IMG/VR virus record: IMGVR_UViG_3300045996_000537
Span: 1-42,672 of that record
Length of the DNA: 42,672 bases
Reading direction: 5' to 3' (one strand)
DNA from: a virus
Below, in pieces: positions 26,406-42,316 of the stretch. The notes beneath the pieces were generated by a model that was given only the letters and a program-made list of their open reading frames with translations, had not been told where the DNA came from and did no database searches. Every line of letters starts with the position of its first letter. Position 1 is the stretch's first letter. Made by a program: the position numbers and the translations under genes.

Positions 26406-26522
26406 TCAGAGCTTCCACGAGTTGCGCTCCTCGGCATCGAGGCTCATCACCCACGCGTAGACGCCGACCGAAATCGAAAGCGTGATGGCGATGCAGATGA
26501 TGGCGGACTGGAATGTCGTCAT
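26406..26522 (-). CDS. 38-aa single-pass membrane protein
   Basis: ATG 26522 overlaps the stop of the 27316 gene (ATGA). The product, MTTFQSAIICIAITLSISVG then VYAWVMSLDAEERNSWKL, has one clear membrane helix and a charged tail. Below usual ORF length cut-offs but supported by coupling. Confidence 0.55.
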   Translation of the reverse strand: MTTFQSAIICIAITLSISVGVYAWVMSLDAEERNSWKL

Positions 26523-27316
26523 GCGCGTACCTGTGGCGAGGCCGTTAGGTACGCGGCGTGCGCTAATTCCGGCGTCTCGAACAAGCCGAGACGGCGATTA
26601 ACACCGTTAAACATGCGCTGAGCGAGGAAGCGCTGACCATGAGGTCTGACCCCCATCGGCAAGTCGTGAACCTTGCCCTTCCGTTGCGAATTATTCTCGC
26701 GGGCCGGGGCAATGAACACGTTGCCACGAGCATATGGCCCCTCGTCGTCAACTCTGCACATGACGAAGCCTTGGCCCCTGCCGCGCTCAGCCCATCGCCC
26801 AGATTGCTCCCAAATGTCCCACCACTCGCCGAGTGTGAGTTGCCATCCAATTTTTCGCTTCTGGGCGTTCTTTTTCTGACTTGCAAAAGCGTGCGTTGGA
26901 CGAGTGCCGCCATCGCGTCCGGTTGCCAAGAGCTTGCGATAGGTGGCGCGCGAGCAGCCCCATTTGCTGTAGCAGTCGAGGTCACGCTTACGAGCCCGAG
27001 CATCTTTCGCGATCTGAGATCGGCGCTTTACGCCCCCGTCCTTCGCAGAAAGCCCGTACTCTTTCAGAACCTGCTGGATGCGTTGCCGAGTAACCCCATA
27101 CTGCTCGCCAATTTGTTCGAGCGTGTACCCGTTGCGATACAGCGCCTCCATCTGCGAGGCGCGGCTCTCTCCGCCCCAAGATGGGCGCTTGAACTTAATC
27201 CCCGCTGCACGCGCAGTCTTGTTGACCACTTGGTACGAGAGCCCAAGCTCGACTGCGGTCTCCCAACAAGTAAGACCCCGCGCAACATATGCGCTGATGA
27301 TCTCAGTGCGCGTCAC
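26519..27316 (-). CDS. HTH protein with HNH-like and AP2-like segments (homing-endonuclease-like)
   Basis: 265 aa. Three parts are visible. Residues about 1-100 hold helix-turn-helix repeats (LTCWETAVELGLSYQVVNKT and YTLEQIGEQYGVTRQRIQQV). Residues about 165-215 resemble HNH-family text (CRVDDEGPYARGNVFIAPAR then ENNSQRK). Residues about 230-260 look like an AP2-type DNA-binding strand set (FNGVNRRLGLFETPELAHAA). AP2 plus HNH is a known homing-nuclease pairing; the HTH front half is less usual. It sits second in the leftward operon, so it may be an early regulator or a mobile gene. Confidence 0.65.
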   Translation of the reverse strand: MTRTEIISAYVARGLTCWETAVELGLSYQVVNKTARAAGIKFKRPSWGGESRASQMEALYRNGYTLEQIGEQYGVTRQRIQQVLKEYGLSAKDGGVKRRSQIAKDARARKRDLDCYSKWGCSRATYRKLLATGRDGGTRPTHAFASQKKNAQKRKIGWQLTLGEWWDIWEQSGRWAERGRGQGFVMCRVDDEGPYARGNVFIAPARENNSQRKGKVHDLPMGVRPHGQRFLAQRMFNGVNRRLGLFETPELAHAAYLTASPQVRA

Positions 27317-27537
27317 GACGCCACCTGCTCTGGCTCGACCATGCGCCAGAGCGCAGCCGGGGCCGTCTTGCCCTTCTCAGCGAGCGCGTTGCGGATGATC
27401 AGATACGTGGTGGCGGGGAAGTCGCCCGACGCGCGCCAGTTGCGGACGGCGGGGGAAGTGCGACCAACGAGCTGCGCGACAATGGAAGCGCCACCCAACT
27501 CGTCAATCACTTCGGCTGCTGTTTGAAGTTCGACCAT
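27313..27537 (-). CDS. Cro/YdaS-like regulator, first gene of the leftward operon
   Basis: 74 aa. The helix-turn-helix lies at about residues 14-45: ELGGASIVAQLVGRTSPAVR then NWRASGDFPATTYLIIRNAL, the layout of Cro-like proteins. It faces the repressor gene at 27602 across an operator palindrome and a leftward promoter whose spacer contains that palindrome. The predicted start of transcription coincides with the ATG, so the message may be leaderless. Likely role: the lytic-side switch protein. Confidence 0.75.
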   Translation of the reverse strand: MVELQTAAEVIDELGGASIVAQLVGRTSPAVRNWRASGDFPATTYLIIRNALAEKGKTAPAALWRMVEPEQVAS

Positions 27538-27542
27538 GCCCC

Positions 27543-27571
27543 CTTATAGCGTCAAATTCCTTGACGCGCAA
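27543..27571 (-). promoter_or_regulatory. Leftward early promoter with operator in its spacer
   Basis: On the minus strand: -35 TTGCGC (27571-27566), 17-nt spacer, -10 TATAAG (27548-27543). The spacer lies inside the palindrome 27549-27567, so a bound regulator would block polymerase. Five bases separate the -10 from the ATG of the Cro-like gene. Confidence 0.6.
27549..27567. promoter_or_regulatory. Operator palindrome between divergent regulators
   Basis: GCGTCAA ATTCC TTGACGC is a perfect 7+5+7 inverted repeat. Its core CGTCAA-N5-TTGACG is repeated at 28207-28223 and in weaker form at 28175-28193. Site of a phage repressor, inferred. Confidence 0.7.
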
Positions 27572-27601
27572 GGGGTGTCAATTTTCATTGCTCACACTTT
27601 T

Positions 27602-27946
27602 ATGGATTCGAAGGCATTTTTGCGCCGCATGGAAGCGAAGAGAGACCCACTCGGTAGTGACGGCGCCGTAGCGCAGCGGGTTCGCCTGTTGCGGGCGGCA
27701 ATGGGGTATGGTGAGGTTGCCGCATTCGCCCGTTATCTCGGCGTCGAGCGCCCCCGGCTTGCCAATGTGGAAAACGGGCTTCCCCTAGGGATCGCGCTTG
27801 CTAGGCGCATCCGCGACCGCACCGGGGCGAGCCTCGATTGGTTATATGAAGGCGACGCCTCGCGCCTTGAACACGAATTGCGTGTGAAGGTGTTTCAGGC
27901 CGAGGACGGCGGCGGCGCCCGGAAGGGCAAGACCGCGAAGTCCTGA
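27602..27946 (+). CDS. XRE-family repressor-like protein (CI position)
   Basis: 114 aa from ATG 27602 (MDSKAFLRRMEAKRDP); ATG 27629 is also possible and neither has a clear ribosome site. The HTH is at about residues 22-75: AVAQRVRLLRAAMGYGEVAA, FARYLGVERPRLANVENGLP, followed by RRIRDRTGASLDWLYEGDAS, the typical end of short XRE domains. There is no C-terminal peptidase domain, so RecA-driven self-cleavage is not expected. It is the best candidate to bind the CGTCAA-N5-TTGACG sites and keep lysogeny. Confidence 0.75.
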   Translation: MDSKAFLRRMEAKRDPLGSDGAVAQRVRLLRAAMGYGEVAAFARYLGVERPRLANVENGLPLGIALARRIRDRTGASLDWLYEGDASRLEHELRVKVFQAEDGGGARKGKTAKS

Positions 27947-28098
27947 CTATCATCGGCCCGCTCGTACCACTTGGCTGCGACAAACTGACTCAGCAGTATT
28001 TGCGCATAGCGTAGGACCGCCTGTGCCTCTTCTGGGTCATCCGGCAGGCTTGCCACCACTTGAATGGCCATTCGGCGCTGAAAAGCGTCGTTCGGCAT
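27895..28098 (-). CDS. 67-aa protein convergent with the repressor gene
   Basis: ATG 28098 has a strong ribosome site (GGAGGGG 6 nt upstream) and a candidate promoter at 28153-28181. The product is helical: MPNDAFQRRMAIQVVASLPD then DPEEAQAVLRYAQILLSQFV. Its last 52 bases overlap the end of the repressor gene on the other strand, so transcription could interfere with the repressor. Function unknown; a switch-related role is a guess from place. Confidence 0.6.
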   Translation of the reverse strand: MPNDAFQRRMAIQVVASLPDDPEEAQAVLRYAQILLSQFVAAKWYERADDSQDFAVLPFRAPPPSSA

Positions 28099-28152
28099 CG
28101 GTACCCCTCCGTGCTCTTTATTAACGCTTGACTATGACAGCACTTTTTACCC

Positions 28153-28181
28153 CTTTTAAAGTGCAATCGAGCTAGCGTCAA
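28153..28181 (-). promoter_or_regulatory. Candidate leftward promoter for the 28098 gene
   Basis: On the minus strand: -35 TTGACG (28181-28176), 17-nt spacer, -10 TAAAAG (28158-28153). The -35 is one half of the imperfect operator at 28175-28193, so the same regulator would control it. Confidence 0.45.
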
Positions 28182-28193
28182 AATATTTTGCGC
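28175..28193. promoter_or_regulatory. Imperfect operator copy
   Basis: GCGTCAA AATAT TTTGCGC matches the 27549 operator in the left arm and 5 of 7 bases in the right arm. Its centre lies 31 bp (about three helical turns) from that of the site at 28207-28223. Confidence 0.5.
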
Positions 28194-28206
28194 TTGGCTA
28201 TTGCAT

Positions 28207-28223
28207 CGTCAAGAAATTTGACG
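28207..28223. promoter_or_regulatory. Operator palindrome before the rightward operon
   Basis: CGTCAA GAAAT TTGACG, a perfect 6+5+6 inverted repeat with the same arms as the 27549 site. Its right arm TTGACG could also serve as a rightward -35, but no good -10 follows at 16-18 nt. Confidence 0.65.
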
Positions 28224-28256
28224 TACGCTCCTCTCTATCAGATCGGGAGAGAGCAG

Positions 28257-28526
28257 ATGGCCGCAGAGCCCACCACCGCAGACTTGATCGCCTGGCTTGA
28301 GAAGCAACCGGCCGACGCGACCTATCATTACAGCGACCCGGAAGGATGTGTGCTCGCTCAATTTTTCCGCCAACATCATGACGACGAGACCATCACGGTT
28401 TATGGTTGGGGATATGGCCCGCCGGGAGTTAAGGATCGCTCGTACCCGCGATTTTGGGCAATCGCTGCCAACAAATATCCGATGGACTTTGGCGCCGCGC
28501 TCTCACGCCTTCGTGGGGCCGCGTGA
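28257..28526 (+). CDS. 89-aa protein, first gene of the rightward operon
   Basis: ATG 28257 has GGGAGAGAG upstream and follows the operator pair. Segments DLIAWLEKQPADATYHYSDP and EGCVLAQFFRQHH resemble small phage proteins with a 'YxYxDxxxCxLAQ' core; a shared YxY-type opening is also seen in the 29740 gene. Function unknown. A longer in-frame reading starts inside the operator region and lacks a ribosome site. Confidence 0.65.
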   Translation: MAAEPTTADLIAWLEKQPADATYHYSDPEGCVLAQFFRQHHDDETITVYGWGYGPPGVKDRSYPRFWAIAANKYPMDFGAALSRLRGAA

Positions 28527-34278: not shown

Positions 34279-34463
34279 CCTCGCGCGTTCCCTTCAAACA
34301 ATCAGACCTGCGCCGGGCAATCAAGGCCGTAGAAGCAGAGGGCATGCGCGTTGTCGGCGTCAAGGCCGATGGCACCGTGATTGTGGATAGGGGGGATAAC
34401 CCACACCCGCTCATACCCAAGCAGTCAACCGCCGACGCAAGGTGGGAGGACCTGGAGGTATGA
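34275..34463 (+). CDS. 62-aa small protein before integrase (candidate directionality factor)
   Basis: GTG 34275 overlaps the previous stop. VPFKQSDLRRAIKAVEAEGM then RVVGVKADGTVIVDRGDNPH: a short helix and a beta hairpin, a type often found immediately upstream of integrase in rhizobial prophages. It is basic and could bind DNA as an excisionase, but has no MerR-type HTH. ATGA coupling to the integrase supports a shared role. Confidence 0.5.
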   Translation: MTSRVPFKQSDLRRAIKAVEAEGMRVVGVKADGTVIVDRGDNPHPLIPKQSTADARWEDLEV

Positions 34464-35548
34464 GGGGACTTCTGTCGATGAGCGACGACATGCCGTATCT
34501 CAGCCGGGAAACGAACCGGCACGGCAACCCCAAGGTGTACGTTCGCCGTTTCGGCAAACGCATCCAGATTCGGGCTCCCGAGAAAACAATTGAGTGGCAC
34601 CAGGAATACGTGGCCGCTCGCGAGGCTCTGGATCGCGGCACCCCAGTTACCCGCCCGGAACGCAAAGCCGCACCCTCGGGCTCGCTAGGCTGGCTGGCAG
34701 CCCTTTATTTCGAGAGCGAAGCGTATCGGGGCCTAGATGCCGTTTCCCAGCGCACACGGCGGCTGATCATCGAAGATTGCCTCACCGAGCCCACCAAGCC
34801 AGGCTCCGCCCACTTGATGGCTGCCTGCCCGGTCAGTCGCTTGTCGGCGGCACACATTCAATTGCTGCGAGACCGGAAGGCCGACAAGAAAGGCGCGGCC
34901 AACAACCGGCTAAAATACCTCTCTTCGATGTTCGGCTGGGCGATTGAAGCCAAGAAGATGACCAGCAACCCGGCACGCGACGTTAAGCCGCTCGCCTACG
35001 CCACGGACGGGTTCTACACATGGACCGACGATGACGTGGAAACGTTCGAACGCTTCTACCCGATTGGCACCCGCCCCCGGCTCGCACTGGCTCTGCTGAT
35101 GTACCTTGGGGTGCGCCGCAGCGATGCGGTGATGCTGGGCAGGCAGCACGTAAAGGACGGATGGATACGCTTCGTACCTCGCAAGACGCGCCACAAGCGC
35201 GCTGGGCTTAGCGAAAAGCCCGTGGTGCCGGAACTGGAAGCGATCATCAAAGCTAGCCCTACGGGGGCTCTGACGTTCCTGGAGACCAAATTCAAGAAGG
35301 GGTTCACGGCGGCCGGGTTCGGCAATTGGTTCCGCGAATGTTGCGATAAGGCCGGGCTGCCGAAATGTTCAGCTCACGGGCTCCGCAAAGCCGGGGCGAC
35401 CCGTGCCGCCGAAATGGGAGCAACGGCGCATCAGCTTATGGCCATTTTTGATTGGAGCACGATTAGCCAAGCCGAGGTCTACACCAAGGCGGCGAACCGC
35501 AAGAAGATGGCTGGCGAGGCCATGGGATTGCTGACCAAGAGGATATAG
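34460..35548 (+). CDS. int: Tyrosine-type integrase
   Basis: 362 aa from ATG 34460 (GGAGG 5 nt upstream). The core-binding helices span about residues 75-180 (GSLGWLAALYFESEAYRGLD, AANNRLKYLSSMFGWAIEAK). Catalytic residues are visible: Arg in YLGVRRSD (about 219), Lys in PRKTRHK (about 242), H-x-x-R in AHGLRKAG (H306, R309), Trp in FDWST (about 332, in place of the second His) and Tyr in AEVYTK (341). It recombines attP with host attB. The attP-like repeats begin 13 bases past its stop. Confidence 0.9.
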   Translation: MRGLLSMSDDMPYLSRETNRHGNPKVYVRRFGKRIQIRAPEKTIEWHQEYVAAREALDRGTPVTRPERKAAPSGSLGWLAALYFESEAYRGLDAVSQRTRRLIIEDCLTEPTKPGSAHLMAACPVSRLSAAHIQLLRDRKADKKGAANNRLKYLSSMFGWAIEAKKMTSNPARDVKPLAYATDGFYTWTDDDVETFERFYPIGTRPRLALALLMYLGVRRSDAVMLGRQHVKDGWIRFVPRKTRHKRAGLSEKPVVPELEAIIKASPTGALTFLETKFKKGFTAAGFGNWFRECCDKAGLPKCSAHGLRKAGATRAAEMGATAHQLMAIFDWSTISQAEVYTKAANRKKMAGEAMGLLTKRI

Positions 35549-37814: not shown

Positions 37815-38122
37815 TCGTTCCACTTTCTTTGTTTTTCCGATTCCGGGAGTGCATCAATGCGGTTGTCAGACTTCTTGCGCTTTTCCACAGCCTGAGCATC
37901 ACGCCTCCGCTGTTCTTCGCGCGCGTTGTCACGGCCTTTATTGCGGCCCGCCAGATAGGCCAGGAGCGCGGCAACGAATCCGCCGAGCACGTAGCGCGCC
38001 CAAGACGGGAGAGCCATGTACGTGGCTAATAGAGGCTGCCAGAACAGCGCAGCGGCCATGCCTGCCGGGATGAGCCAGACCCACCACGGCAGAACGTCCC
38101 AAAACCAGTTGAGCCAGCTCAT
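37796..38122 (-). CDS. Inner-membrane spanin-like protein (Rz-like)
   Basis: 108 aa. Hydrophobic segments WWVWLIPAGMAAALFWQPLL (about 13-32) and YVLGGFVAALLAYLAGRNKG (about 44-63) are followed by a charged coiled coil (RDNAREEQRRRDAQAVEKRK) to the end. That coil plus the overlapping Rz1-like lipoprotein gene marks it as an i-spanin. Two membrane segments rather than one is unusual and changes the predicted side of the coil. ATG overlaps the endolysin stop. Confidence 0.6.
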   Translation of the reverse strand: MSWLNWFWDVLPWWVWLIPAGMAAALFWQPLLATYMALPSWARYVLGGFVAALLAYLAGRNKGRDNAREEQRRRDAQAVEKRKKSDNRIDALPESEKQRKWNEWLRDR

Positions 38123-38982
38123 GGCGCTTCCACATCCTCGCCTTCGCGCTTCTTGCGGAGCACGTCATAGATAGCGAGACCAGCGAAGTAGAGGATGGCG
38201 GACAGCACCAACACGAGCGCTACACCGAGCCCGAACTTAACGTGTTCGGACGAGAGGCCGGTAAAGGAGCTGATCGTATCGGAGAACCGATTGAACACGT
38301 CCAGAATGATCGCCATGAGCGCGCTGATGCCGGTCTTTTTGGCGACGTTACCGGCTGGCGTTTCCGTCACTGACGTATCGTTGGCGCTGCCCTTGCCGGT
38401 GTCTTCCGGCTCCATCGGAGTCGGCGACGGGACCGGCTCGTCCGGCTCCATCGGCTTGGCGGCGTTCTTCGCCATCACGAGCGCAGCCTTGCGGACCTCG
38501 TTCACGCGCCGCGTCCAGCCGGGGCCGAACGTGCCCCAAGTCTTAAGCTTGCGCAGGAACATCATGCGCTGATCGCAAATCGATCCGACAAGCTCAACCG
38601 CGTTGGCGGCCTTTGCCTTCGTGAGCGTCACGTCACCGACAACGCCATCGACGCGCTGCGTATCGAGCGCGCGTTGCAGCCATTTAGCGCCCTGCCCCGG
38701 CCCCGAGTTAACCGCCGCATCGAACACCGCGTAATCGACGCCGGACGGAAGTTCATCGCCCTTGATCACGTCCCAATACTGGGCGCGGTAAATGTCCTCC
38801 AGCTCGGTTTTCGAGATGTAGCGGACGTTCTGCGAGCCGAGACCGCGTTTGCGACGGTAAGCGTCGTACACCCGCTTGGTGACGCCCTTCATGGTCTCGC
38901 CGCCGGGATCGGCAGGATGGTTCGCATACCCGCCTTCATGGACGAGAACGCGCTTGAGCGCTTCCGCGTAGTTGGATCGCAT
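38119..38982 (-). CDS. GH108 endolysin with C-terminal membrane segments
   Basis: 287 aa from ATG 38982 (AAAGGGA 5 nt upstream; the ATG at 39000 has none). Residues about 5-170 are GH108: VLVHEGGYANHPADPGGETM with catalytic Glu16, KGVTKRVYD, YWDVIKGDELPSGVDYAVFD, then PG_binding_3-type LVGSICDQRMMFLRKL. A Pro/Thr linker leads to two hydrophobic segments, GISALMAIILDVFNRF (about 216-231) and FGLGVALVLVLSAILYFAGL (about 251-270). Tail-anchored endolysins are less common than signal-arrest ones, and may release enzyme when the membrane is depolarised. Confidence 0.8.
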   Translation of the reverse strand: MRSNYAEALKRVLVHEGGYANHPADPGGETMKGVTKRVYDAYRRKRGLGSQNVRYISKTELEDIYRAQYWDVIKGDELPSGVDYAVFDAAVNSGPGQGAKWLQRALDTQRVDGVVGDVTLTKAKAANAVELVGSICDQRMMFLRKLKTWGTFGPGWTRRVNEVRKAALVMAKNAAKPMEPDEPVPSPTPMEPEDTGKGSANDTSVTETPAGNVAKKTGISALMAIILDVFNRFSDTISSFTGLSSEHVKFGLGVALVLVLSAILYFAGLAIYDVLRKKREGEDVEAP

Positions 38983-39001
38983 ACGGTCCCTTTCAGGCAT
39001 T

Positions 39002-39046: not shown

Positions 39047-41260
39047 CTAGAAGATAACGACCGCTTCCCAGGTCACGGTTGCCTCTGACGTGTGAGCGAG
39101 TTTGAAACCGGATGTCGTGATCTCGCTCGCAGTACCGGCCGAGACGGTGACGGTTGGCGCTAAGTGCATTTTTGGCGAGAAATAAACCGGGATGTAGCCG
39201 TTCGCGGAACGAACCGAGCCCGTCTGCACAAAGCGCTGGCATCGTGCCTGTTCAATGTGGGTCGGATCATAAACGAAAGGCGTGCGGTCAGCGCCAATCT
39301 CGACCTTGATCAACTCGATTTCGAATCCGTCGCTACTGGCCGTCCCAACCGGCGTATAAAGAAATCGGATGGACAATTGCGTGGTGTCGTCGTTGAGTTT
39401 GCCAGGCGTGTATTTAAACGTTTGCCAGTCTTCGGTCAGCGTCACGCCGCCACTTGACGAGCCCACGGCAGCATCACCCGTGACATAGGTGCCGCCCGAA
39501 GACGTAATTGCCTGCTCACTAGTATGATTGGTCTGCCGTAGTTGAGCGGTCAGGAAGCTGTTGACCGCCGAGAAACCTGAAAGCTTACGCGCGCGGAATG
39601 ACAGCGTTACTTGCTGCGATCGAAGCGGGATGCTGTCTGACCGCAGAATGTTCGCAACAAGATTCATCGCCTGGACGGCGGAGTTTCCATCGTCCCGGAC
39701 AATCCGCATCGCCCATTCGGCCTTGTCGCCCGCGACACGCGAAACCGTAGCGCCCGCAACGCTACTACTGCGTGCGAACGTAAATCCGTCTGCGACAACC
39801 GCACGCGATGTCGTCACAAAAGACGTTCCATGCGTCCACTGGCGCAGCCCCCCATTGGGGGTTAGGTTCGGATTGGGAATCATCTTGGCTATCGCGGGCA
39901 GCGACGCCGTAGCGATCAAATCGGGCGACAGGAGAATGAGGTTCGAGGTCCGGCTTTGCGTCGATCCCGCGTAGTCCTCAGCATTGCCGAGCGCATACCA
40001 CTTCTCGCGCACCTTCATGGTGGCGAAATATCCAGTCGGCCAGAACGGAGCGGTGGTGACGAGCTTCCACCCCTGCCAACCTAGTGCGCCGGAGGAATTG
40101 TAAACCGTATCCCCGTCAGCCGACGCGATACAAATTGAGTTCTCGGGCACACCAGGGATGAGCGGCTTGTCGCGGCGGGACGGCGCAAGAAGATGGATTT
40201 TGCCATCGTCATAGATCAGCTCAGGCGGGTTCGCATCAAGCAATAACCCGCTATCAATCACTGTACTCCAGGTTGTCAGGTTGCTCGATCGGCTAATACC
40301 GACGTTGCCATTGGTACGGATCGTTGCGATCCACTTATTCTGCGACCCCACGCGCGCGATGGAGGTTTCCGAGATGCTCGGAAATGTAACGGTCGGCACG
40401 ATTGCGTTGGCATGCTCAGTCCACGTCGCCCCGTGATAGAACAGCGCCACCGCGCCATCCGTGTCATGACCACCAGCGCTTGCAGGATACGGCGTCAACT
40501 TGCTGTGGAAGTTCATCGTGGCGGCGGTAAGCCCCGTGACCGGAACGCTAGTCCACGTTCCGGGTGCCCCGTCGCCGTCCGAATAGATGAGTATCGGATC
40601 GTAATGGCTAGCGTCCGCTTTCACACGCGCCGCGAGGATAACGAAGCGGCCGTCGATTGTGCCAAAGGTGAAGTTGCGCGTGTCGCAATCCGATTGAGTG
40701 AAAATCAGATACGGCTCTTCGAGAAACGAGTTAAGCCCATCATCGCTGCGGCCGACCATAAGCCGCGTTCCGACTTCGATGCCATGCCCCCTTGCCTCTC
40801 GCCATGCCGAGACCAACACGCCATCTGCGGATGCCTGAAAAAGCCCCGTATTCAATCCGCGATATTTATGCCGGATCGGATCAACGAACTTGATCGAACA
40901 GTTCGGCCCTTCGAACGGATGATTGCGCGGCTCGCGAGGAAGCCAGATCGTATCGGAGCCAACCTTGAACGCGCCGTTGTAATAGTTCGCGCCGGTTGGA
41001 AGTTCGGAGACCAAAAACACTTCGTTGCGAAGGTTTACGGGCTCGCCGAGGTGTGCTGTTTCCAGCGCGGCCACTGCGGCGCTATTATCCGAAGCGCCTG
41101 CAGATACGCTTAATCCGTTGCGATCGGCAAAAATATCACCTTCGCCGTCTGCCCCATCATTTCCCGGGTCTCCCTTTGCGCCCTCGGGCCCGGGCCGGCC
41201 AGGCATAACCTTGAGCTTGATAATCGGCTTTGAGGCGGCGCGTAGCTGTACGATGCTCAT
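39047..41260 (-). CDS. Tailspike / tail fibre with collagen-like stem and beta-propeller-like domain
   Basis: 737 aa. Residues 1-19 (IVQLRAASKPIIKLKVMPG) are an attachment peptide shared in pattern with the next gene. Residues about 20-41 are Gly-X-Y collagen-like (PGPEGAKGDPGNDGADGE). Residues about 80-440 hold repeated strand blocks with Asp-rich loops (VGRSDDGLNSF, LIYSDGDGAPGTW, GISRSSNLTTW) as in sialidase/BNR propellers. A C-terminal carbohydrate-binding-like part (DGFTFARSSSVAGATVSRVA) ends with YDPTHIEQARCQRFVQTG and a beta tip. Probable receptor-binding or glycan-degrading spike; catalytic residues not assigned. Confidence 0.75.
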   Translation of the reverse strand: MSIVQLRAASKPIIKLKVMPGRPGPEGAKGDPGNDGADGEGDIFADRNGLSVSAGASDNSAAVAALETAHLGEPVNLRNEVFLVSELPTGANYYNGAFKVGSDTIWLPREPRNHPFEGPNCSIKFVDPIRHKYRGLNTGLFQASADGVLVSAWREARGHGIEVGTRLMVGRSDDGLNSFLEEPYLIFTQSDCDTRNFTFGTIDGRFVILAARVKADASHYDPILIYSDGDGAPGTWTSVPVTGLTAATMNFHSKLTPYPASAGGHDTDGAVALFYHGATWTEHANAIVPTVTFPSISETSIARVGSQNKWIATIRTNGNVGISRSSNLTTWSTVIDSGLLLDANPPELIYDDGKIHLLAPSRRDKPLIPGVPENSICIASADGDTVYNSSGALGWQGWKLVTTAPFWPTGYFATMKVREKWYALGNAEDYAGSTQSRTSNLILLSPDLIATASLPAIAKMIPNPNLTPNGGLRQWTHGTSFVTTSRAVVADGFTFARSSSVAGATVSRVAGDKAEWAMRIVRDDGNSAVQAMNLVANILRSDSIPLRSQQVTLSFRARKLSGFSAVNSFLTAQLRQTNHTSEQAITSSGGTYVTGDAAVGSSSGGVTLTEDWQTFKYTPGKLNDDTTQLSIRFLYTPVGTASSDGFEIELIKVEIGADRTPFVYDPTHIEQARCQRFVQTGSVRSANGYIPVYFSPKMHLAPTVTVSAGTASEITTSGFKLAHTSEATVTWEAVVIF

Positions 41261-41269
41261 CTGAACCCG

Positions 41270-42316
41270 CTAGATCATCAACTGAAATGAGACGCCGCCA
41301 AGCGACGGATCAACGGGGGTGGTGCCGCCAGGAACGCCGTAGGTCGCTTTAACTACGAACGATGTGGTCGTTCGCGAATCGATGGAGATGTCAATCCCAG
41401 GAACGGAGGAAACCACCGTCGCAACGACGCTGTAGGTCGCGCTCGCAAGCGTGACGCTAAGATTTACTGTCCAGTTGCCGGTACTGTTTTTTGTGACCGA
41501 GCTGATATTTCCTGAGTTTGCGCCGAGCGTCCCAGCCGTCGCAAAATACGCCCATACGGTGGGGCCGCCCCCCCCGCCAGCAGGCGCGGACCAGAGCGCA
41601 TCTGTCCCGTTGAAGGTCAGAACGTTCCCGGATGATGGCGCGGTTGGTGCTCCCCAGGTTGCCGCGCCGCGCCGCAATATCATCCCTCGCGTTGAGCCGA
41701 TGATCTTGTCGAGGATGGCCGTTAGCGTGTTTGCAGCCCCCGCCGCCGAGCCACCGCTGATGTTGGCGAGAACGCGATCGTCTGCAATCGAGGCCATCGA
41801 AGCAAGCGGGATAGCGCTGAGCGTATTGCTCGCGCCGCTGATCGTCTTGTTTGTCAGCGTGGCTGTTGCGGCACGCTCCGTTGCGTTAGACGTATTATCG
41901 ACGTTGCCGAGACCCACATCGCCCTTCACGATCCCGGTCGGTGAGTTAACAACCGGCGCGGTGAGCGTTTTGTTGGTGAGCGTCTCCGAACCCGTAAGCG
42001 ACGCTTTCGCCGCAAGGTCAGAAACAAGATTTGTGACGGTCGATTGCGCTTGCGCGCCGGTATGGTTCGCGCGTGCGTAAACGTTGAGGCCGAGCCCGCC
42101 CGCGTCGTAAGTCGCAGCCAACATGTCGCCAGTGCCAGCGCCGGATGCGCCTGCCGGGCCTTGCGGGCCCGTAGGACCGGGATCGCCTTGAGGGCCTGCG
42201 GGGCCGGTTGCTCCGGCCGGGCCGGTCGCACCCTCTGGCCCAGGATCGCCCGTATTTCCTTTAACTCCCGGAAGTATCTTGAGCTTGATCGTCGCGAGTT
42301 GCGGATTGAAGGTCAC
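41270..42316 (-). CDS. Collagen-like tail fibre protein
   Basis: 348 aa. The N-terminus (NPQLATIKLKILPG) matches the pattern IKLKxxPG of the 39047 gene. Residues about 16-61 are collagen-like Gly-X-Y repeats (GDPGPEGATGPAGATGPAGP). A central repeat section is rich in TLTNKT and LSAIPLASMASIADDRVL. A Gly-rich hinge precedes a C-terminal beta domain (VWAYFATAGTLGANSGNISS, SVVSSVPGIDISIDSRT). A trimeric fibre is likely. ATG 42316 overlaps the gene above. Confidence 0.8.
   Translation of the reverse strand: MTFNPQLATIKLKILPGVKGNTGDPGPEGATGPAGATGPAGPQGDPGPTGPQGPAGASGAGTGDMLAATYDAGGLGLNVYARANHTGAQAQSTVTNLVSDLAAKASLTGSETLTNKTLTAPVVNSPTGIVKGDVGLGNVDNTSNATERAATATLTNKTISGASNTLSAIPLASMASIADDRVLANISGGSAAGAANTLTAILDKIIGSTRGMILRRGAATWGAPTAPSSGNVLTFNGTDALWSAPAGGGGGPTVWAYFATAGTLGANSGNISSVTKNSTGNWTVNLSVTLASATYSVVATVVSSVPGIDISIDSRTTTSFVVKATYGVPGGTTPVDPSLGGVSFQLMI

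Follow-up and report, generated by a model that had tools for sequence, protein, structure and literature searches.

Three related palindromes as candidate operators of a lambda-like lysogeny switch with counterparts in Hyphomicrobiales prophages

Three related palindromes flank the repressor gene in the window (the whole 42,672-base stretch analysed, a virus record without a host assembly) and are very probably the sites where a repressor shuts the phage off. We consider it highly likely that they serve as operators in a lambda-like lysis-lysogeny switch, in which the repressor (Rep), and probably Cro, would shut both lytic arms. The initial annotation had proposed a lysogeny operator set controlling both arms, and this proposal is strongly supported by an architecture conserved in relatives and by covariation of the operator with the Rep recognition helix.

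Results

The three sites (O1, O2 and O3; Table 1) lie exactly where the initial annotation had placed them, with O1 and O2 perfect and O3 imperfect and about three helical turns from O2. The exact motif CGTCAA-N5-TTGACG has two copies in the whole 42,672-base record (27550-27566 and 28207-28223), compared with 0.0039 expected under a first-order Markov model. Both are intergenic, and the whole-genome scan suggested as a check gave no other exact copy. O1 is located between the divergent cro and rep genes and is identical to the reverse complement of O2 at 16 of 17 positions. O3 and O2 are placed between m67, a small gene convergent with rep, and the rightward gene chain; O2 is 33 bp upstream of the ATG at 28257, and the O3-O2 distance of 31 bp corresponds to about 3 turns at 10.5 bp. 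A possible weak half-site on the repressor side of O1 is listed tentatively, and three related loci (L003, L169 and L170) show a weaker site equally far from their cro-side operator. Because the window contains 22 perfect 6-N5-6 palindromes of whatever sequence, a palindrome alone has little meaning, and it is the repetition of a single sequence, together with its placement, that counts. Matches with up to three mismatches numbered 44 in the window against 20 expected; these degenerate copies were mostly dispersed outside the immunity region and were left out as sites.

Table 1. Candidate operators, predicted promoters and genes of the immunity region and integrase arm
Feature	Position	Strand	Description
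O1 (site 1)	27549..27567		19 bp GCGTCAAATTCCTTGACGC; perfect palindrome, 7-bp arms; inside spacer of predicted leftward cro promoter
O2 (site 2)	28207..28223		CGTCAAGAAATTTGACG; perfect 6-bp arms; whole 17-bp spacer of predicted rightward promoter
O3 (site 3)	28175..28193 (core 28176-28192)		GCGTCAAAATATTTTGCGC; imperfect copy, 2 mismatches vs consensus
Possible weak half-site	27577..27591		GTCAATTTTCATTGC; 26 bp from O1, repressor side; one arm only matches; tentative
Predicted cro promoter	27543..27571	-	TTGCGC (27571-27566), 17-bp spacer, TATAAG (27548-27543)
Predicted rightward (integrase-arm) promoter	28201..28229	+	TTGCAT, 17-bp spacer (O2), TACGCT
Cro-like gene	27313..27537	-	74 aa; profile matches to Cro structures
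Repressor Rep	27602..27946	+	114 aa; helix-turn-helix
m67	27895..28098	-	Small conserved gene, function unknown; convergent with rep, 3′ ends overlap by 52 bp
First gene of rightward (integrase) arm	28257..28526	+	89 aa; unknown
Tyrosine integrase	34442..35548	+	Rightward arm; Pfam Phage_integrase 3.1e-10, PHROG 1 2.9e-30

The assignment of the divergent genes as Cro-like and repressor-like was borne out by profile searches. The Rep family profile built from relatives (A1) matched the N-terminal domains of the 434 repressor (1.1e-7) and P22 C2 (4.2e-7), and Rep matched PHROG 2328 (transcriptional repressor). The helix-turn-helix was the only match in its 114 residues, and a C-terminal protease domain is lacking. 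The corresponding Cro profile (A2) matched the Cro structures 3bd1 (1.3e-9), 1rzs (P22 Cro; 9.7e-5) and 2hin. The single Cro-like protein scored 20.5 bits with Pfam P22_Cro, below the cut-off of 30.2, and a match to YdaS was also below cut-off. It has a sub-threshold match to the NCBIfam domain carph-isopro (3.7e-8) as well, a term that was not found in the literature searched. Homologues of m67 occupy the equivalent position in many relatives and were not detected in L168, L175, L176 and L182. The protein matched no Pfam or NCBIfam family; its family motif is approximately RRxAIQxAxxLPEDxEDAxxVLxxAxxLxxxFL, and members of this small-protein family lie convergent with the repressor in many prophages.

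Beyond cro, the leftward arm carries recombinase, DNA methyltransferase, terminase, portal and head genes, while the rightward chain also contains a Lar-like gene. Similarity to epsilon15-like podoviruses is seen in a structural protein and in the head and tail genes of the window, and the phage is probably a temperate phage of alphaproteobacteria with a podovirus-type tail. The gene after cro (26519-27316, minus strand) encodes a resolvase-like helix-turn-helix fused to an HNH-endonuclease-like C-terminal part and is possibly a homing endonuclease. An endolysin of glycosyl hydrolase family 108 is encoded at 38119-39000 on the minus strand (Pfam 1.4e-28). Tail genes are present at both ends of the linear record (39047-42316, and 55-1014 on the minus strand), which suggests that the genome is circularly permuted or was cut.

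Divergent Cro/Rep cassettes were found in ppBeUSDA76-1, in one Xanthobacteraceae contig and in further Hyphomicrobiales genomes. Most have a palindrome with a 5-base centre just upstream of cro, and its sequence differs between prophages (TTCAC/GTGAA, ATCAC/GTGAT, TTCAG/CTGAA, TACCG/CGGTA, TCCAA/TTGGA and TTCAA/TTGAA). Taking the motif from the cro-side site only and scanning about 10 kb, we found two further copies, 30-33 bp from each other, on the far side of rep in 16 of 17 loci (the window is one of the 17); Markov-shuffled sequences gave 0.15 pairs in all when any spacing between 18 and 60 was allowed. In L180 and L181, close relatives and a distal site helped in choosing the motif. These two loci are close to each other, as are L003, L169 and L170, so the 17 represent about 13 independent loci. 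In L171, the cro-side site is accompanied by a single distal site, and there is no clear pair. Good motif matches cluster in the immunity cassette of each locus. The window has the defining features of the cassette, namely a palindrome with 5-bp arms and an N5 centre upstream of cro, a pair 29-34 bp apart beyond rep (here 31 bp) and an m67 gene convergent with rep.

For replication, 20 further loci were picked by Rep or Cro similarity and subjected to an automatic rule, which took a perfect 5-N5-5 palindrome no more than 260 bp upstream of rep and then sought pairs of that motif. A scannable palindrome was present in 13 of the 20 loci and pairs were obtained in 8-9, convincing ones at 29-32 bp in L221, L222, L223, L225, L226, L229, L232 and L233 and a doubtful one in L220; the expectation for pairs at 29-34 bp, summed across 41 loci, was 0.4. 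Additional motifs from these loci include TCTAA/TTAGA, TCCAT/ATGGA and TACAT/ATGTA. Three of the 20 (L234-L236) had earlier been seen at cro, with no earlier pair scan, and none is among the successes. L183-L185, L217-L219 and some others failed the automatic rule for lack of a perfect palindrome or of a pair. L221 (genome G393, contig 525, 27738-28596) carries two tandem Rep-family genes about 570 bp apart.

The motif alone does not pick out relatives. GCGTCAA-N5-TTGACGC gave at least 119 matches in a scan of IMG/VR, about the chance level for a collection of that size, and none had a Rep homologue nearby. One locus (L033) has the identical 19-mer and no Cro or Rep homologue, and the match was taken as chance. 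An unrelated viral contig (L055) has GTCAA-N5-TTGAC four times in 11 kb (1521, 2868, 8821 and 10830), three of the four with full 6-bp arms; this is possibly another operator set. Searching viral contigs for close relatives of Cro or Rep found nothing, the first 25 kb had no megablast match among phages, and Rep matched nothing in phages (E 0.1) or plasmids. No description of this cassette family was found in the literature searched.

The promoters were predicted from positional conservation across relatives. In both predicted promoters of the window, the operator occupies the 17-bp spacer. A TTG precedes the cro-side site by 6-8 bp in 11 of 17 loci when the sequence is read towards cro, and in the direction of the integrase arm 13 of the 17 have one 7-9 bp ahead of the pair's right-hand site. 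At three control positions, this was the case in 0-1 of 17 loci. The -35 and -10 hexamers of both promoters are weak and under the threshold of a simple consensus scan. The cro -10 element ends 5 bases upstream of the ATG, which would put the start point approximately at the cro ATG, and many relatives are alike in this respect. A -10 element so near the ATG suggests a leaderless cro mRNA.

Differences between operator half-sites correlated with differences between Rep recognition helices (first set, r = 0.58, P = 0.0002, n = 15; larger set, Mantel r = 0.41, P = 0.0002, n = 22), and no such correlation was seen with the rest of Rep (r = -0.07 and r = 0.00, respectively). In the eight new loci alone, the Rep-helix correlation (r = 0.30, P = 0.05) was weak and not separable from relatedness, and this subset gave no clear result for either the Rep or the Cro helix (n = 8 and 7). 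The window Rep helix is nearest to those of L172 (62%) and L171 (54%), both of which have TTCAA/TTGAA operators; outside the helix, Rep shows no greater similarity to these two than to other loci. The reverse complement of O2 in the window and the cro-side site of L172 have the core TCAAATTTCTTGA in common.

The Cro helix also covaried with the operator, with r = 0.27 (P = 0.05) in the first set and r = 0.34 (P = 0.003) in the larger set. The weaker correlation for Cro than for Rep in the first set would fit an arrangement in which Rep alone or Cro alone uses O1-O3 and the other regulator binds elsewhere. There is a precedent for this in phiKO2, with one operator bound by Cro and five by the prophage repressor (PMC4997575), and the possible weak site at 27577 could serve one protein privately. 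Against such a division, the Cro helix covaries with the operator in the larger set as well and an RGRIP-like motif in Cro tends to accompany CAC-type operators; we therefore regard use by a single regulator as a doubtful, though serious, alternative to use by both.

Control of a leftward m67 promoter could be a further, or even the main, role of the distal sites; antisense transcription from it towards the 3′ end of rep could influence rep. A sigma-70-like leftward sequence (TTGACG-16-CAAAAT, 28212-28185) spans O2 and O3, and m67 is conserved and convergent with rep. However, no -35 element left of O3 is conserved across relatives, and the hexamers depend on an operator sequence that varies among them, which makes this role unlikely. 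Phage promoters are at times host-controlled and palindromes are frequent targets, so the sites might belong to a host regulator and not to the phage repressor; this is very improbable, because the motif varies among prophages of one host group and follows the prophage's own Rep helix, and good matches are concentrated in each immunity cassette. Chance or structural palindromes with no regulatory role (e.g. transcription terminators) are hardly credible despite the 22 palindromes of the window and a terminator-like hairpin at 27556-27576 that overlaps O1, since the exact motif is expected only 0.004 times and position and pair spacing are kept while the sequence changes.

Under the favoured reading, with Rep as the protein that would rule lysogeny, a Rep dimer would bind each palindrome by placing one recognition helix on each TCAA half-site, and a Cro dimer would probably bind the same palindromes. 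A dimer on O1 would cover the -35/-10 spacer of the promoter that reads leftward into cro and the genes behind it, and a dimer on O2 that of the promoter driving the rightward integrase arm. O3, 31 bp from O2 and on the same helix face, would probably allow cooperative binding of two dimers. Because Rep has no domain that could serve lambda-type cooperativity or cleavage by RecA, the prophage would have to be induced by another route.

Discussion

Judged from its sequence, the cassette is best described as a lysogeny switch on the lambda plan whose operator sequence is new and whose sites have a number and spacing of their own. Few alphaproteobacterial phage switches have known operators, and neither lambda nor 16-3 operators turned up when a 2025 survey of S. 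meliloti prophages searched for both (PMC12429752). The cassettes form a natural series of constant geometry and varying specificity, and both the helix-operator code and the immunity group of a prophage are thereby directly testable in soil and nodule bacteria. Since related prophages keep the layout while the sequences differ, the sites also offer a testable model of how immunity types diverge. It is possible, and we propose it tentatively, that Hyphomicrobiales prophages share one cassette of fixed geometry (O1 in the cro promoter spacer, O2 and O3 about 30-33 bp apart) in which the operator and the helices of both regulators change together, giving many non-cross-reacting immunity types predictable from sequence, with m67 as the third part of the switch.

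We know of no lambda or P22 motif that corresponds to CGTCAA-N5-TTGACG, and the initial annotation was right that the motif is new. It had also called the wiring unlike that of lambda, which did not hold: rep has an operator region at either side, the divergent cro gene follows on one flank and the integrase arm on the other, and this is the lambda plan. As in lambda, 434 and P22, an operator lies between divergent cro and repressor genes and a second operator region with the same motif (28175-28223) lies beyond the repressor on the integrase arm. The DNA-binding domain of Rep is related to those of 434 CI and P22 C2, and Cro to P22 Cro. The window differs from these phages in its operator sequence and 31-bp centre spacing, in having one strong cro-side and two distal sites instead of three and three, in a Rep without the C-terminal dimerisation and self-cleavage domain, and in the extra conserved convergent gene m67.

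Among described systems with a non-cleavable repressor, the immB region (CB, Cro) of N15 and phiKO2 comes nearest. Its repressor has no RecA cleavage site, and operators flank the repressor gene, with two in the distal arm (PMC4997575). In contrast to the window, phiKO2 carries three sites in the cB-cro interval, its operators are 16-bp TA-N10-TA sequences and its distal arm leads to a replication gene, not to an integrase.

Rhizobium phage 16-3 (C repressor) is likewise a temperate rhizobial phage. Its operators have ACAA...TTGT half-sites with a variable spacer, unlike the constant 5-bp spacer and one strong cro-side site of the window. The 16-3 operators are named oL1, oL2, oR1 and oR2 (PMC12429752). 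No homology to the 16-3 repressor was seen, as Rep matched no phage record at E 0.1.

The same cassette is found in ppBeUSDA76-1 (OP596613), with Cro 43% and Rep 35% identical, an m67 homologue, an O1 and a pair 32 bp apart, but with the operator TTCAC-N5-GTGAA. This phage is a siphophage by microscopy (PMC10127595), whereas the window has epsilon15-like head and tail genes. ppBeUSDA76-1 is spontaneously released by B. elkanii USDA 76 (PMC10127595), and the cassette therefore occurs in a working temperate phage.
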